Assembly (NCBI RefSeq): GCF_008634025.1
Contig: NZ_PDCM01000001.1
Span: 3,380,501-3,444,500, forward strand
DNA: 64,000 nt
Direction: 5' to 3'
DNA from: Streptomyces albofaciens JCM 4342
GTDB lineage: Bacteria; Actinomycetota; Actinomycetes; Streptomycetales; Streptomycetaceae
A program made the translations under genes and the position numbers. The notes under the pieces were generated by a model. It saw only the letters and a list, made by a program, of their open reading frames with translations. It was not told the DNA's origin and did no database searches. Positions 40,837 to 47,051 of this stretch are shown here, one piece after another (within the stretch, counting starts at the first letter, position 1; the number at the start of each line of letters is the position of its first letter).

Positions 40837-42120
40837 ATGGGGCAGCACGAGACGGTGGCGACGAGCCTCGCGCCCACCGTACGCGAGGAGATCGGAGCCG
40901 CTCTCGCGGACGTGGACGCGGACCTCGCGCGGCGCTACCCGGGCGATCCCGGCACCCGGCAGCCGGTCCACACGGTCTACGTGCCCGGCGACGCCGTCAC
41001 CGCCGGCACCCTCCGCGAGTGGGGCGACGCCGCCCTCGCCGCGCTCGACGAGCACGCACCCGACGCCGAGGCGTTCGCCGGCGTCCTCGGCCTCCCGGAC
41101 GACCTGGCGGAGCCGGTGTACGAGCGGGTCCGGGCCAAGCTGGAGCGCGAGCCCGTGGAGGACCTGCGCATCGACTTCGAGGACGGCTACGGCCCGCGCC
41201 CGGACGCCGAGGAGGACGAAGCGGCCGCCCGCGCCGCCGCCCTCGTCGCGGCCGCCTGCGCGGACGGCACCGCGGCGCCCTACACGGGCATCCGCATGAA
41301 GTGCATGGAGGCCGCCGTCCGCGACCGCGGCATCCGCACCCTCGACATCTTCCTCACCGGTCTGATGGCGGCCGGCGGCCTCCCCGACGGCCTGGTCCTG
41401 ACCCTGCCCAAGGTCAGCTACGCCGAGCAGGTCGCCGCCATGGCGCGGCTGCTGGAGGCGTTCGAGAAGACCCACGGCCTGCCGGCCGGCCGGCTCGGCT
41501 TCGAGATCCAGATCGAGACCACCCAGTCGATCCTGGGCGCCGACGGCCGCGCCACCGTCGCCCGCATGATCGAGGCCGCCGGGGGCCGCGCCACCTCCCT
41601 GCACTACGGCACCTTCGACTACAGCGCCTCCTGCGGCGTCAGCGCCGCCCACCAGGCCCCGGACCACCCGGCGGCCGACCACGCCAAGGCCGTCATGCAG
41701 GTCGCCGCGGCCGGCACCGGCGTGCGCCTGTCCGACGGCTCGACCAACGTCCTGCCGATCGGCGCGACCACCCGGGTGCACGACGCCTGGCGGCTGCACC
41801 ACGGCCTGGTCACCCGCGCGCTGGCCCGCGCGTACTACCAGGGCTGGGACATGCACCCGGCCCACCTGCCCACCCGCTACGCCGCCGTCTACGCCTTCTA
41901 CCGCGGCGGCCTGGAGCAGGCCGCCGCCCGGCTCACCGCGTACGTCTCCAAGGCCGGCGGCGACGTGCTGGACGAGCCCGCCACGGCCAGGGCGCTCAGC
42001 GGCTACCTGCTGCGCGGCCTGGACTGCGGCGCCGTGGACCCGGCCGAGGTCGCCCGCCTGACCGGGCTCACCCGCGCCGACCTGGACGCCCTCGCGGGCC
42101 GCCCCGCCCCGGCCGCCTGA
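40837..42120 (+). CDS. DUF6986 (HpcH/HpaI aldolase, CitE-like) enzyme
   Basis: A 427-residue protein of the DUF6986 family, a branch of the CitE/malate-synthase-like TIM barrels. Motifs include RIDFEDGYGPRPD, MKCMEAAVRDRGIRTLDIFL (over two strands), EIQIETTQSILG with the metal Glu, and SLHYGTFDYSA. In S. coelicolor a relative lies next to aceB and the allantoin genes and is controlled by AllR, so a role in ureide or glyoxylate metabolism is likely. The ATG at 40837 follows GGGAGGGTGTCGG. Here it is isolated; none of the allantoin genes is in the window. The dyad in its promoter fits the same type of control. Confidence 0.82.
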   Translation: MGQHETVATSLAPTVREEIGAALADVDADLARRYPGDPGTRQPVHTVYVPGDAVTAGTLREWGDAALAALDEHAPDAEAFAGVLGLPDDLAEPVYERVRAKLEREPVEDLRIDFEDGYGPRPDAEEDEAAARAAALVAAACADGTAAPYTGIRMKCMEAAVRDRGIRTLDIFLTGLMAAGGLPDGLVLTLPKVSYAEQVAAMARLLEAFEKTHGLPAGRLGFEIQIETTQSILGADGRATVARMIEAAGGRATSLHYGTFDYSASCGVSAAHQAPDHPAADHAKAVMQVAAAGTGVRLSDGSTNVLPIGATTRVHDAWRLHHGLVTRALARAYYQGWDMHPAHLPTRYAAVYAFYRGGLEQAAARLTAYVSKAGGDVLDEPATARALSGYLLRGLDCGAVDPAEVARLTGLTRADLDALAGRPAPAA

Positions 42121-42127
42121 CGCCCCG

Positions 42128-43303
42128 TCACCAGCGGCGTACGAACACGTCGTACGCCGCGTTGGTGTCCCCGGGCACCAGATCGGCCGCGTCCGAGGCG
42201 AACGCCACCGCCCGGCCCCCGCCGTCGACGGCCCCGCCGCCCGCCCGGTCGCCCGGGCCCACGTCCCGGCGCTGTCCGCTCCGCGCGTGCACGAGGACCA
42301 GCCGGCCGCCCTCCGCGACGAGCACCCACCGGCCGTCCCCGCTGACCGCCTTCGCCACCGCGCCGTCGCCCGCCACCCGCCAGGTCCGCCCGGCGCGCAG
42401 ATCGCGGACGTAGGCGTGCGAGCCGGCCGCGGTGCCCCCGCGCACGACGTTGGTGGCGGTGGACGTGAAGGCCGCGTACCGGCCGTCGGCGCTGAGCTGC
42501 GCGAGCCGCGCCGGGCCGTCGGCCGGGGAGCCGTCGTGCGTGATGTCCGCCTGCCCGACCTCGCCGGTGTCCCGGTCGCGGACGAACACATCGCCCGTGT
42601 CCGGGCCGCTGCCGCCGCGCTGCCGGATGCCGTACGCCGCCACCCGGCCGTCCCGGGAGAGCGAGCCGCCGTCGGCGAGCGGGTACCCCGAAGGGCCGGC
42701 GGGGGTGAGGAGTTCGTCGGTGCCGCTGTCCAGGTCGCGGACGTACAGCAGGACGGGGGCGTTGCCGTGCCGGTTGGTGATCGTGTACGCGAGGTGCCGC
42801 CCGTCGGCGCTCAGCCCGGCGACGTCGCTGATCTCGCCGCCGATCGGCGGGTCCTTCGGACGGACCTGCTCCGTCGTCCCGGTGCGGCGGTCGTGGACGT
42901 ACGGGAGCGGATAGCGCGTCCCCGTCGAGAACGCGACGTACCGGCCGTCCGCGCTGATCGCCAGGGGGCCGCCGCCGTACCCCTGTGGCCTCGGCACCTG
43001 GGTGAGCTTCCTGGTGACCGTGTCCTTGACCAGCAGCGCGGGGAAGTAGCCGGCGCCGAGGTTCGGGGCGGCCGACCAGAAGACGACGTACCGTCCGTCC
43101 GCGCTGACGGCGGCGGGCCCCGACGCCCCGTCGGCCTGTGTGCCGTCGGAGGCCGTGCTGACCCGCTGGACCGAGGACGCGGGGCGGGCGGATGCGGGCC
43201 CGGCGGCCTGCGCCCGGCCCGGGGCGCACAGCCCCGCCACGACCGCGCCCACCGCACTGGCTCCGGCGACCGCGCGGACCGACCGCGACATGCCCCACCC
43301 CAT
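42128..43303 (-). CDS. Secreted TolB-like beta-propeller protein A
   Basis: A 391-residue exported protein. A signal peptide (about residues 1-32, VRAVAGASAVGAVVAGLCAPGRAQA) precedes repeated WD40/TolB-like blades with the signature SADGRYVAF and VHDRRTG (at least six copies). It is a paralogue of the propeller B gene at 45849, sharing SADGRY, HDRRTGRTT and the ending DLVPGDTNAAYDVFVRRW. No enzyme motif is seen; it may bind a ligand or cell-wall component. The start ATG at 43301-43303 lies 38 bases below a terminator-like hairpin; ATG 43289-43291 is an alternative. It is divergent from helR. Confidence 0.82.
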   Translation of the reverse strand: MGWGMSRSVRAVAGASAVGAVVAGLCAPGRAQAAGPASARPASSVQRVSTASDGTQADGASGPAAVSADGRYVVFWSAAPNLGAGYFPALLVKDTVTRKLTQVPRPQGYGGGPLAISADGRYVAFSTGTRYPLPYVHDRRTGTTEQVRPKDPPIGGEISDVAGLSADGRHLAYTITNRHGNAPVLLYVRDLDSGTDELLTPAGPSGYPLADGGSLSRDGRVAAYGIRQRGGSGPDTGDVFVRDRDTGEVGQADITHDGSPADGPARLAQLSADGRYAAFTSTATNVVRGGTAAGSHAYVRDLRAGRTWRVAGDGAVAKAVSGDGRWVLVAEGGRLVLVHARSGQRRDVGPGDRAGGGAVDGGGRAVAFASDAADLVPGDTNAAYDVFVRRW

Positions 43304-43328
43304 GCCCGCCCCCGAGATGCCCGTCCCG

Positions 43329-43364
43329 AAAAAAGAAGAAGCAAGGAGTTCGCACACTCCTTGC
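43329..43364 (-). terminator. Attenuator-like terminator upstream of propeller A
   Basis: On the minus strand GCAAGGAGT, a 6-base loop GTGCGA and ACTCCTTGC form a perfect 9-bp hairpin (43341-43364), followed at once by TTCTTCTTTTTT (43340-43329). That is a classical intrinsic terminator, unusual in such a GC-rich genome. It lies after the promoter at 43374-43402 and 26 bases before the propeller A ATG. It would end transcription after about 40 bases unless it is bypassed. On the plus strand the order is reversed and would not terminate. Confidence 0.8.
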
Positions 43365-43373
43365 CACTCTCAA

Positions 43374-43402
43374 CATATAGCGCACAGGGGGGCTTGCGGC
43401 AA
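43374..43402 (-). promoter_or_regulatory. Minus-strand promoter overlapping the RAE
   Basis: Read on the minus strand: TTGCCG (43402-43397), a 17-bp spacer, and TATATG (43379-43374). The predicted start point is near 43367, directly before the hairpin at 43364-43341. The -35 box lies inside the rifamycin-associated element. It therefore looks rifamycin-responsive and points toward propeller A, away from helR. Confidence 0.7.
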
Positions 43403-43408
43403 GGCCCC
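43389..43408. promoter_or_regulatory. Rifamycin-associated element (RAE)
   Basis: GGGGCTTGCGGCAAGGCCCC matches the RAE consensus I know from upstream of rifamycin-resistance genes (rph, arr, helR) in actinobacteria. It is an imperfect inverted repeat that makes transcription inducible by rifamycins. It lies 129 bases upstream of the helR start. On the plus strand TTGCGG (43394-43399) could be a -35 box, with a weaker -10 such as CACAAT at 43419-43424. Confidence 0.85.
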
Positions 43409-43536
43409 GGTCGTGCCGCACAATCGCTCGCCGAGGCCAGGACCTGCGGGAACGGGAGACACGCGCAGCACGCGCCGCGGCGCGGGCGTACGCGCGGCAG
43501 CACCCCGCGGGACGGCCCAGGATCGGAGCTGACACC

Positions 43537-45708
43537 ATGCATTCCCTGACCACCGGCGTGTTCGACCTTCCCGACCGCCTCGCCGCCAAGGCCGACCCCA
43601 AGCTGACGGCGGCCGACGAACGGCACTTCGCGGCCATCGCGGAGAGCCTGGACCGGACGATCACCGAACTGTCCGACCGCCTCGACGCCGAACTCAAGGC
43701 GCCCGGCGGCACCGGCCGGCAGGCGATGGACCGCGACGCGGAGGTCCACCGGCTGACCGGACGGCTGCGCGCTCTGCGCCGCTTCGGCCTCGACCTGTGC
43801 CTCGGCCGCATGGCCGGAGCGGACGGCACCGAGCCCGTGTACGTCGGACGGCTCGGCCTCACCGACAGCACGGGCCGCCGGCTGCTGGTCGACTGGCGGT
43901 CCCCCGCGGCCGAGCCGTTCTTCGGCGCCACCCACGCCGACCCGATGGGTCTGACGAGCCGCCGCCGGTACCGCTGGACCGACGGCCGGATCACCGACTA
44001 CTGGGACGAGGTCTTCACCGCCGACGGGCTCGAAGGGCACGCCGCGCTGGACGACCACTCCGCCTTCATCGCCAGCCTGGGCGGCAACCGGTCGGCACGG
44101 ATGCGGGACGTGCTCGGCACCATCCAGGCCGACCAGGACGCCGTCATCCGGGCCGGATCCCGCGGCGCCCTCGTGGTCGACGGCGGGCCGGGCACGGGCA
44201 AGACCGTCGTCGCCCTGCACCGCTCCGCCTACCTCCTGTACTCCGACCCCCGCCTCGGACACGGCCGCGGCGGCGTGCTGTTCGTCGGCCCGCACCGGCC
44301 CTACCTGGCCTACGTGGACGACGTCCTGCCCAGCCTCGGCGAGGAAGGCGTGCAGACCTGCGTCCTGCGCGACCTCGTCGCCGAGGGGGCGGACGCGGCG
44401 GACGAGAGCGACCCGGAGGTGGCCCGCCTGAAGTCCTCCGCGGACATGGTGAAGGCCATCGAGAAGGCCGTCGGCATCTACGAGGAGCCGCCCACCAGGG
44501 GGATGACGGTCTCGACCGACTGGGGCGACGTCCGGCTGACCGCCGACGACTGGGCCGAGGCGTTCGACGCGCCGGACCACGGCACCCCGCACAACGAGGC
44601 GCGCGAGCAGATCTGGGAGGAACTCGTCGCGATCCTGCTGGACAAGCTCGACGGCGACGTCCCCGGCCACGCCTTCGAGCGGTCGCTGCGGTACGACGGG
44701 GAACTGGTCACCGCCCTGCACCGCGCCTGGCCGCTGCTCGAAGCCACCGACCTGGTCTCGGACCTGTGGACGGTTCCCGCCTATCTGCGGCTGTGCGTCC
44801 CCTGGCTCAGCGCGGACGAGGTGCGCAGGCTCCAGCGCAAGGACGCGCCCCAGGCATGGACGGTGTCCGACCTGCCGCTCCTGGACGCGGCGCGGCAGCG
44901 CCTCGGCGACCCGGAGGCGGCCCGCACCAGGCGCCGGCACGCGGCCGTGCTCGCCGCCCAGCGCGAGCGCATGACGCAGGTGGTCGACAACCTCATCGAC
45001 GCGGCGGCCGCCTCCGGCGCGGACCTCGACGAGGGTGAGGGCCTGGTGACGATGTTGCGCGGCCAGGACGCCCAGGTCAGCCTGGTCGACGAGGCCGAGC
45101 TGACGGTCGCGGAACCGGACCGGCTGGCCGGCCCGTTCGCGCACATCGTCGTGGACGAGGCCCAGGAACTGACCGACGCGGAATGGCAGATGCTGCTGTC
45201 GCGCTGCCCGTCCCGGAGCTTCACCATCGTCGGCGACCGCGCCCAGGCCCGGCACGGGTTCACCGAGTCGTGGCGGGAACGGCTCGAACGGATCGGCCTG
45301 GACCGGATCGACGTGGCCTGCCTGAACATCAACTACCGCACGCCGGAAGAGGTCATGGCGGCGGCCGAGCCGGTCATCCGGGCCGCGCTCCCGGACGCCA
45401 ACGTGCCGGTCTCCATCCGCCGCGGCGGCGTTCCCGTGGTCCACGGCTCCGTCGCCGACCGCGACACGGTCCTCGGCGACTGGCTCGCCACCCACGACGA
45501 CGGCATCGCCTGCGTCATCGGCGACCCCACGTTCCGGGCGACGCGGCGCGTCCGGTCGCTGTCCCCGGAGCTGGCGAAGGGCCTGGAGTTCGACCTGGTC
45601 GTCCTCGTCGACCCGGAGAACTTCGGCGACGGTGTCCAGGGAGCGGTCGACCGCTATGTCGCGATGTCGCGCGCGACGCAGCAACTTGTCATCCTGACGA
45701 GCTCCTGA
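43537..45708 (+). CDS. helR: HelR, RNA polymerase-recycling ATPase (rifamycin tolerance)
   Basis: A 723-residue HelD/HelR-type SF1 ATPase. Walker A is DGGPGTGKTVV (Lys222), Walker B is IVVDEAQEL (about residue 536), motif III-VI regions follow (VGDRAQARHGFTESW, NYRTPEEVM, ELAKGLEFDLVVLVDPENF, YVAMSRATQQL). The N-terminal coiled-coil (residues about 20-75) should reach into the RNA polymerase channel. HelR displaces rifamycin from RNA polymerase. The RAE 129 bases upstream supports this identity over plain HelD. The ATG at 43537 follows CGGAGCTGACACC. It is flanked by two paralogous propeller genes. Confidence 0.93.
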   Translation: MHSLTTGVFDLPDRLAAKADPKLTAADERHFAAIAESLDRTITELSDRLDAELKAPGGTGRQAMDRDAEVHRLTGRLRALRRFGLDLCLGRMAGADGTEPVYVGRLGLTDSTGRRLLVDWRSPAAEPFFGATHADPMGLTSRRRYRWTDGRITDYWDEVFTADGLEGHAALDDHSAFIASLGGNRSARMRDVLGTIQADQDAVIRAGSRGALVVDGGPGTGKTVVALHRSAYLLYSDPRLGHGRGGVLFVGPHRPYLAYVDDVLPSLGEEGVQTCVLRDLVAEGADAADESDPEVARLKSSADMVKAIEKAVGIYEEPPTRGMTVSTDWGDVRLTADDWAEAFDAPDHGTPHNEAREQIWEELVAILLDKLDGDVPGHAFERSLRYDGELVTALHRAWPLLEATDLVSDLWTVPAYLRLCVPWLSADEVRRLQRKDAPQAWTVSDLPLLDAARQRLGDPEAARTRRRHAAVLAAQRERMTQVVDNLIDAAAASGADLDEGEGLVTMLRGQDAQVSLVDEAELTVAEPDRLAGPFAHIVVDEAQELTDAEWQMLLSRCPSRSFTIVGDRAQARHGFTESWRERLERIGLDRIDVACLNINYRTPEEVMAAAEPVIRAALPDANVPVSIRRGGVPVVHGSVADRDTVLGDWLATHDDGIACVIGDPTFRATRRVRSLSPELAKGLEFDLVVLVDPENFGDGVQGAVDRYVAMSRATQQLVILTSS

Positions 45709-45848: not shown

Positions 45849-47051
45849 ATGGCGAAGCGGATACGTACGGGGCTGGGCGTGGCCGTGGCGGTCGGGGTGC
45901 TGTTGTCGGGGGAGGCGGCGTGGGCCGGTGAAGGAGCCGGTGAGGCAGCCGCGTCCACCGTCGTACGGGTGAGCACGGCGGCGGACGGCGGCCAGCTGAC
46001 CGGCCCGTCGCACATCGCCTCGATCAGCGCCGGCGGCCGGTACGTCGCCTTCTGGACGGGGGCGCCGGAGCTGGGCGGCGGAGGCGGTTCGACGCACGTA
46101 CTGGCCGTCAAGGACCTGCGCACCGGGCGGGTCGGGCGGATTCCGGACGCCCGGCGCGAGGACGGGGCCGGGATCGACAACGTCCCGCGCGTCAGCGCCG
46201 ACGGCCGCTTCGTCGCGTACTCCACCGGATACGTCGGGCACCGTTCCGCGTACCTGCACGACCGCCGCACCGGCCGCACCACCCACCTGGTCCCGCCGCC
46301 CGGCTCCCCGGCCGGCGGCGGGAGCGGCGAGGTCACCTCGCTGAGCGCGCACGGTCGTTCGGTGGCCTTCCGGGCCACCGGCCCCGCACCGGACGGCCCG
46401 GCGCTCGACTACGTACACGACCTGGTCACCGGCCGCACCGAGCTGATCACCCCCAAGGCGCCCGGGGGCAACGCCAAGTACGGGATCGTACGCGGTGTCT
46501 CGCTGAGCGGGACGGGCCGGTGGATCGCGTACGTGCTCGACGAGGCGGAGGGCGGCGGGCAGGACCTCTTCGTACGGGACCGCCGGACGGGCGCCGTGCG
46601 CCGGGCCGACCTGAATGCCGACGGTACGCCGATGGAAGACCGCCGCCTGCGCCTGGGCGAGCTGAGCGCCAACGGCCGAGCCGTGACGTTCGGCGCGGAC
46701 ACCCCTCGCGCACCGGCCCGGTCCGCAGCGCCCGGCTGGTTCGGCTACGTACACGACCTGCGCGCCCGGCACACCCGGCAGGTGGGCCGGGAGCGCGGCT
46801 TCCCCACGGCCGTCAGCGGCGACGGCCGGCGCGTGCTGGAGAACCACGACGGCCGGCTGACGCTGCACGACCTGCGCACCGGCGAGCAGCACCCGGTCGC
46901 GGACGGCTATCTGAACCACGCCGCCCAGCACGCGCTGAGCCGGGACGGCCGGAGCGTGGTCTTCGGCTCGGTCCTGCCGGACCTGGTGCCGGGGGACACC
47001 AATGGCGCGTACGACGTGTTCGTGCGGCGGTTCGGTGCCGGGGCGGAGTGA
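45849..47051 (+). CDS. Secreted TolB-like beta-propeller protein B
   Basis: A 400-residue exported protein with a signal peptide (MAKRIRTGLGVAVAVGVLLS through AWAGEG) and TolB/WD40-like blades: VSADGRFVAYST, YLHDRRTGRTTHL, SLSGTGRWIAYV, FVRDRRTGAVRRA and SRDGRSVVFGS. It ends DLVPGDTNGAYDVFVRRFG, nearly the same as propeller A at 42128. Both therefore derive from duplication. The ATG at 45849 follows CAGGGGGAAGC. The gene lies 140 bases after helR in the same direction. Function is unknown; a surface ligand-binding role is likely. Confidence 0.82.
   Translation: MAKRIRTGLGVAVAVGVLLSGEAAWAGEGAGEAAASTVVRVSTAADGGQLTGPSHIASISAGGRYVAFWTGAPELGGGGGSTHVLAVKDLRTGRVGRIPDARREDGAGIDNVPRVSADGRFVAYSTGYVGHRSAYLHDRRTGRTTHLVPPPGSPAGGGSGEVTSLSAHGRSVAFRATGPAPDGPALDYVHDLVTGRTELITPKAPGGNAKYGIVRGVSLSGTGRWIAYVLDEAEGGGQDLFVRDRRTGAVRRADLNADGTPMEDRRLRLGELSANGRAVTFGADTPRAPARSAAPGWFGYVHDLRARHTRQVGRERGFPTAVSGDGRRVLENHDGRLTLHDLRTGEQHPVADGYLNHAAQHALSRDGRSVVFGSVLPDLVPGDTNGAYDVFVRRFGAGAE

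Follow-up and report, generated by a model that had tools for sequence, protein, structure and literature searches.

The rifamycin-associated element (RAE) upstream of helR in the window, which is the whole 64-kb stretch of DNA analysed here, raises the question of why a promoter-like sequence on the strand facing away from the resistance gene leads directly into a candidate transcription terminator. The mechanism by which the RAE senses rifamycin was called unsolved in 2026, and only sense promoters are cited in that account (PMC12802891, Discussion). What had been a guess about a single site proved, on comparison across loci, to characterise RAE modules at large, and the sequences suggest that the RAE switch has an unrecognised second half, a backward-facing promoter that in Streptomyces usually meets a stop signal.

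Structure of the RAE region upstream of helR

The gene to the left of the RAE and the elements on the sense strand are as follows.

42128-43291, minus strand: propeller A, a PD40 beta-propeller protein (PF07676) with a leader that, read by eye, resembles a signal peptide
43389-43408, plus strand: RAE, GGGGCTTGCGGCAAGGCCCC, an exact 20-mer match
43394-43399, plus strand: sense -35-like TTGCGG, read directly, inside the RAE and followed by a 19-bp spacer
43419-43424, plus strand: sense -10 CACAAT for helR, with a predicted start near 43431
43537-45708, plus strand: helR, encoding the RNA polymerase recycling motor HelR (NCBIfam NF041254, 1263 bits, cut-off 750)

The palindrome upstream and the resistance-family gene downstream make this locus an RAE-controlled rifamycin-resistance module, and the site was therefore correctly predicted to be RAE-linked and to lie beside the gene for HelR. 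The genome carries two exact copies of the RAE; the second precedes a rifampin monooxygenase gene (NF033145, 888 bits), and the antisense block is common to both copies. Conservation among the RAE loci of the genus extends to the first bases of the expected sense mRNA leader (43425-43452 in the window; about GGCCGAAGCCAGAACCTGCGGAAA). Two related PD40 propeller genes, about 45% identical and on opposite strands, lie one on either side of helR (42128-43291 and 45849-47051), and a DUF6986 / HpcH-HpaI aldolase-like protein is encoded at 40837-42117, to the left of propeller A.

The elements on the antisense strand are as follows.

43402-43397, minus strand: antisense -35-like TTGCCG, letters read directly, inside the RAE and followed by a 19-bp spacer
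43377-43372, minus strand: antisense -10 element TATGTT (TANNNT), at a fixed offset from the RAE core
43364-43341, minus strand: terminator hairpin with a perfect 9-bp stem and a 6-nt loop, at or next to the predicted +1
43340-43329, minus strand: T-rich tract TTCTTCTTTTTT of the predicted intrinsic terminator, letters read directly
43365-43331, minus strand: predicted short antisense RNA of about 35-37 nt, with its ends placed by the -10 element and the T tract

Read directly on the minus strand, the order is TTGCCG, 19 nt, TATGTT, GAGAGT, GGCAAGGAGT, GTGCGA, ACTCCTTGCT and TCTTCTTTTTT, with 7 bases between TATGTT and the hairpin. The stem is formed by pairing of 43364-43356 with 43349-43341 around the loop 43355-43350, so that a G+C-containing hairpin followed by a U-rich tract, as in an intrinsic terminator, occupies 43364-43329. 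The segment 43325-43369 folded with a minimum free energy of -19 kcal/mol, compared with -10.56 (sd 2.63) for shuffled sequences (z -3.21), and 2 of 200 shuffles folded as well. A terminator scan of 36-52 kb returned 1 site, which is not above the 1.4 expected by chance in 16 kb. The combination of TANNNT, an immediate hairpin and a T tract occurred a single time in the window, with a score of 21.7; when the window was resampled 20 times by a first-order Markov model, the mean number of such sites scoring 14 or more was 0.2, falling to 0.05 at 18 or more and 0 at 20 or more. The strong evidence for the site comes from its conservation, described below. A sigma-70 scan reported no promoter at the site, but that scan admits spacers of 16-18 only and the antisense spacer is 19. 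No Rfam match was obtained for 43000-43700 with E up to 1. A search by eye for a short reading frame in the predicted antisense RNA found none; within the stem, AAGGAG is followed one base later by a GTG at 43357.

Predicted starts were placed by the spacing rule between the -10 element and the start. Given TATGTT as the -10, antisense transcription is expected to start at about 43364-43366, which would put the first base of the hairpin at about +1 and give an RNA of about 35-37 nt. The original prediction placed the start near 43367, the hairpin about 3 bases further on, and the end of the transcript at about 40 nt. Its start position was right to within 1-3 bases and is better placed at 43364-43366; the perfect 9-bp stem and the T tract stand, with the hairpin now beginning at or next to +1; and a short RNA is still predicted, at the lesser length. 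Its central claim, that a minus-strand promoter runs directly into an intrinsic terminator, is supported by the sequence and by its conservation.

Loci used for comparison

The genus is taken here as Streptomyces, since many named Streptomyces records share the antisense block. Allowing no more than 2 mismatches, the RAE pattern matched up to 247 of 295 genomes of the genus and up to 179 of 394 genomes of the class (57 of 137 genera); as a reversed control pattern also matched a minority of genomes, these genome counts are upper bounds. Part of the RAE matches made up the locus set L001-L183, consisting of 60 class stretches, 60 genus stretches and 63 further loci. Exclusion of L003 and L004 (shifted duplicates) and of L010 (a short contig with a misplaced match) left 180 loci. 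Gene labels were given to these by blastp clusters (helR 94, rox 44, rph 20, arr 13, singles 9), of which one or two members each were checked by HMM. L050 and L053 were short of flank, and the looser hairpin score and the tail counts were made on the remaining 178 loci, which include the spurious locus L180. Without L180, the 177 loci (89 Streptomyces and 88 from 17 other families) served for the -10 offsets, the strict hairpin count and the gene classes, and the scan for a sense -10 at -300 to -31 used the 176 loci with 310 bases of left flank. Each locus was oriented by the better match to TATAGC/CAGAAT, a pattern that overlaps the antisense -10 and chooses between the two orientations only.

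In L128, an RAE module stands before a gene for a RibD C-terminal domain protein (1628-2215; PF01872) without an NCBIfam match; we know of no rifamycin-resistance family among RibD C-terminal domain proteins. Relatives of the 146-bp block were found on 36 plasmid records, 6 of which cover at least 80% of the block (29 records from Streptomyces, 2 from Embleya, 2 from Streptantibioticus, and 1 each from Nocardia, Nonomuraea and Rhodococcus), and a search of phage records with the same block gave no match.

Symmetry and conservation of the antisense -10 element

The 11-bp core of the RAE, CTTGCNGCAAG, is flanked by two -10 elements, one sense and one antisense, each starting exactly 15 nt away. 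On each side this spacing yields TTGC(G/C)G followed by a 19-bp spacer, with the RAE common to both. The antisense TANNNT was present at its fixed offset from the core at 170 of 177 loci (86/89 in Streptomyces and 84/88 in other families), against a mean background for TANNNT of about 0.65% over 170 positions, in which the peak itself is counted. At two or three of the seven loci without it in place, the element is shifted by one base (L143, L163 and perhaps L046). On the sense side, NANNAT was found at its fixed offset at 92% of the genus loci and 80% of the class loci, and NANNNT at 174 of 177. The antisense -10 accompanied every class of resistance gene, both in Streptomyces (helR 39/41, rox 28/29, rph 17/17, others 2/2) and outside it (helR 50/51, rox 14/15, rph 3/3, arr 13/13, others 4/6), and was present in 17 of the 18 families sampled, that of Streptomyces included.

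A reciprocal search with a pattern for the antisense element that contains none of the RAE bases gave, among the matches listed, 119 places in 118 stretches. The RAE core lay exactly 7 nt further on at 117 of these listed places; of the other two, L249 has a one-base variant of the RAE and L267 is a stretch that ends inside the RAE. The listed matches were mostly Streptomyces records, together with Micromonospora, Nonomuraea, Kitasatospora and Streptacidiphilus. Judged by these patterns, the RAE is a symmetric pair of putative divergent promoters, and the predicted antisense arm is a general feature of RAE modules.

Two further properties were read from the 117 named loci listed, which were not selected for the RAE and are mostly related Streptomyces. 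The first base of the sense -10 is a C, off consensus, in 114 of them, and the antisense -10 matches TANNNT, as would be expected if the antisense arm were the stronger of the two. Bases G at -5 to -2 and C at +12 to +14 relative to the core start are 98-100% conserved, and positions adjacent to the core vary. Two -35 hexamers alone would need no such conservation of the outer bases. Together with the symmetrical placement of the two -10 elements, this would suit a regulator that acts on the RAE palindrome at a promoter bidirectional merely by symmetry, with the terminator doing no more than blocking unwanted divergent transcription. That reading is possible, with the odds somewhat against it: a useless antisense -10 should decay, yet 170 of 177 loci keep it, including the arr loci, most of which have no hairpin nearby.

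Conservation of the hairpin and its tail

By the strict count, at least 7 of 9 Watson-Crick pairs were found at 79 of 89 Streptomyces loci, where 8.4 (maximum 16) were expected after shuffling of the 3' sides. By the looser score, in which one spurious locus is included, a promoter-proximal hairpin was found at 82 of 90 Streptomyces loci on the antisense side and at 12 of 90 on the sense side. In the alignment of the 89 Streptomyces sequences, 93.2% of the stem cells were paired, compared with only 48-65% when the stem register was slid, and 7 of the 9 pairs had two-sided changes. The number of two-sided cells was 29 against 5.5 in shuffles, and 0 of 500 shuffles reached 29. An RNA of 35-37 nt is thus predicted at most Streptomyces RAEs. 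The 12 nt past the stem at the Streptomyces loci with a hairpin contained 44% T and 4% A; further along the antisense stretch, at bases 58-70, the figures were 18% and 12%. The opposite flank of the stem, which holds the -10 element, had 31% T and 33% A when read the other way; because this flank is also A+T-rich, the tail is set apart by its scarcity of A more than by T alone.

Outside Streptomyces, the hairpin was found at 46 of 88 loci by the looser score (15 of 88 on the sense side) and at 24 of 88 by the strict score (4.8 expected), and the tail past the stem had just 23% T. The arr loci, which lie among L066-L083 and are all from outside Streptomyces, had the antisense -10 at 13 of 13 and a promoter-proximal hairpin at 2 of 13. 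Thus, the predicted terminated dead end is mainly a Streptomyces feature of the antisense arm.

The sequences of stem and loop vary among families (differing stems are found in L034, L042, L092, L095, L101 and L107, for example). Such family-specific sequences argue against an RNA that base-pairs in trans, and a trans-acting small RNA is accordingly disfavoured. They also bear on whether the inverted repeat might be a DNA operator for a regulator and form no RNA hairpin. Paired changes suit DNA and RNA equally, and the counts of G-U to A-C mismatches, by which an RNA hairpin can be weighed against a DNA palindrome, did not separate the two and lend support to neither (21:16 in Streptomyces, 12:12 in the named loci and 26:10 in the other families). 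An operator, however, would not be expected to vary so widely between families, nor does it account for a stem that starts at the predicted +1 or for a Streptomyces tail that is rich in T and almost without A, and we regard a DNA operator as unlikely.

Genes to the left of the RAE

The original prediction also proposed that the site could set the expression of propeller A. In the window, the distance from the T tract to the propeller start codons (43300 and 43291) is 29-38 nt; this leaves scant space for a further promoter, and read-through would be the likely route if the gene were expressed from the RAE side. A propeller gene adjoined the RAE, however, at 1 of 298 oriented loci (286 of which have at least 600 bases of left flank), and that one is the window itself. 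The direction of the left neighbour was called from G+C by codon position, without annotation. In Streptomyces, the hairpin was present at 46 of 50 loci whose left neighbour points away, 28 of 32 whose left neighbour is co-directional with the resistance gene, and 7 of 7 with unclear direction; in the other families the corresponding numbers were 14/31 (divergent), 25/44 (co-directional) and 7/13 (unclear). As the Streptomyces hairpin is kept whatever the direction of the left neighbour, attenuation of a left-hand gene is not its conserved role. Attenuation of propeller A as a conserved function was rejected on these grounds, and it is very improbable even in the window that the state of the polymerase sets read-through into 42128-43291.

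A proposed cis-acting antisense arm

Taken together, these observations favour, with a probability of roughly 0.6, a reading of the site as the antisense half of the RAE switch, leading into a dead end, where antisense initiation would, in cis, hold or throttle the sense promoter. Selection would then act on initiation at the antisense promoter. Since the RAE is common to both promoters, it could be occupied by one polymerase or one RAE-binding protein at a time; the expected polymerase footprints overlap across the RAE, so that the two promoters should exclude each other. The antisense promoter would in this way restrain the sense promoter of the resistance gene, and the terminator would keep idle antisense firing short, sparing whatever gene lies leftward. 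Termination as the step that senses RNA polymerase is less likely, given that the arr loci keep the antisense -10 and seldom have the hairpin.

Promoter competition of the simple kind would not be enough. In a two-state competition model, drug-bound polymerase raised sense output above the drug-free level at no point of the grid tried, which was confined to cases in which its residence matched or outlasted that of a productive polymerase; in the algebraic limit of the model, no excess arose even if the drug-bound polymerase left at once. Simple promoter competition was therefore rejected as the sole basis of induction, which makes the cis role incomplete and means that something else must act. 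The rifamycin shift would need a further step, most likely a factor binding the RAE palindrome. The 98-100% conservation of the outer G/C arms favours such a factor, a point weakened by the relatedness of the loci, and part of the antisense block could owe its conservation to a protein operator.

The near-universal predicted antisense promoter, at a fixed and symmetric distance, offers a concrete and easily mutated part, one -10 element, for the question of how the RAE works. Should the antisense arm prove to matter, it would be missing from any model that portrays the RAE purely as a one-way operator.

Comparison with known systems

Promoter-proximal intrinsic terminators and attenuators consist of a hairpin and a U-rich tract soon past a start site. 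The RAE site differs from typical members of this group in that its antisense side has no conserved downstream gene.

The actinobacterial RAE as already described shares with the site the same palindrome, the same genes and the overlap with the sense -35 (PMC10719064, PMC12802891). In Mycobacterium smegmatis, the RAE overlaps the -35 of promoter 2 of helD, and one sense start lies about 20 bp upstream of the RAE (2022 review, PMC10719064), near the antisense start predicted here. These descriptions, in the passages of PMC10719064 and PMC12802891 cited here, give sense promoters only, with neither an antisense promoter nor a terminator, and a possible unidentified factor at the RAE is suspected in both. 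An antisense promoter at the RAE was not found in the open-licence literature searched, and an earlier mention in the primary RAE papers is possible.

Symmetric bidirectional promoters, as described in the part of PMC10268837 used here, resemble the RAE pair in having divergent starts from a symmetric element, with one RNA often non-coding. There, the symmetric element is the -10 and the starts are 7-25 bp apart, whereas in the RAE pair the symmetry lies in the -35/RAE and the -10 elements are separate.

A striking likeness is offered by the helD/pps alarm of Bacillus subtilis, as presented in the passages of PMC12802891 drawn on here, where an antisense promoter with a 19-bp spacer lies upstream of a polymerase-protecting gene and gives a short RNA with putative intrinsic terminators. 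The drug is the same and the target gene is related. By sequence, an antisense promoter upstream of the resistance gene is likewise predicted at 170 of 177 RAE loci, and its presence in 17 of 18 families is consistent with RNA polymerase itself being the sensor at the RAE. The antisense arm would then report on the health of the polymerase: constant dead-end firing by healthy polymerase would silence the resistance gene, and once polymerase bound by rifamycin no longer sustained this firing, the repression would lift and the sense promoter would open, in a divergent geometry and for helR, rox, rph and arr across Actinobacteria. This would be a special case of the cis-acting antisense arm favoured above, with which it overlaps, and we consider it doubtful.

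The geometry is the main difficulty. The B. subtilis promoters converge, their starts are 39 bp apart and the antisense transcript measures about 90 nt; collision of the convergent promoters is part of the model given there, and inducibility was lost when they were brought 17 bp closer (PMC12802891). The RAE pair, in contrast, is divergent and overlaps within the RAE, with predicted starts about 66 bp apart and a predicted RNA of about 35-37 nt, so that a polymerase arrested at the antisense promoter would block the sense promoter too, and the output of the two-state model argues against it as well. Between -300 and -31 relative to the core, no offset showed a conserved sense TANNNT or NANNAT that could face the antisense promoter (the highest frequency was 2-3% of loci), and just 8 of 89 Streptomyces loci and 11 of 87 other loci had a sense TANNNT anywhere at -200 to -46. 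The B. subtilis mechanism was therefore rejected in its direct form. Divergent, overlapping and without a conserved convergent sense -10, the RAE pair stands outside the B. subtilis type of alarm, though it may serve the same end.
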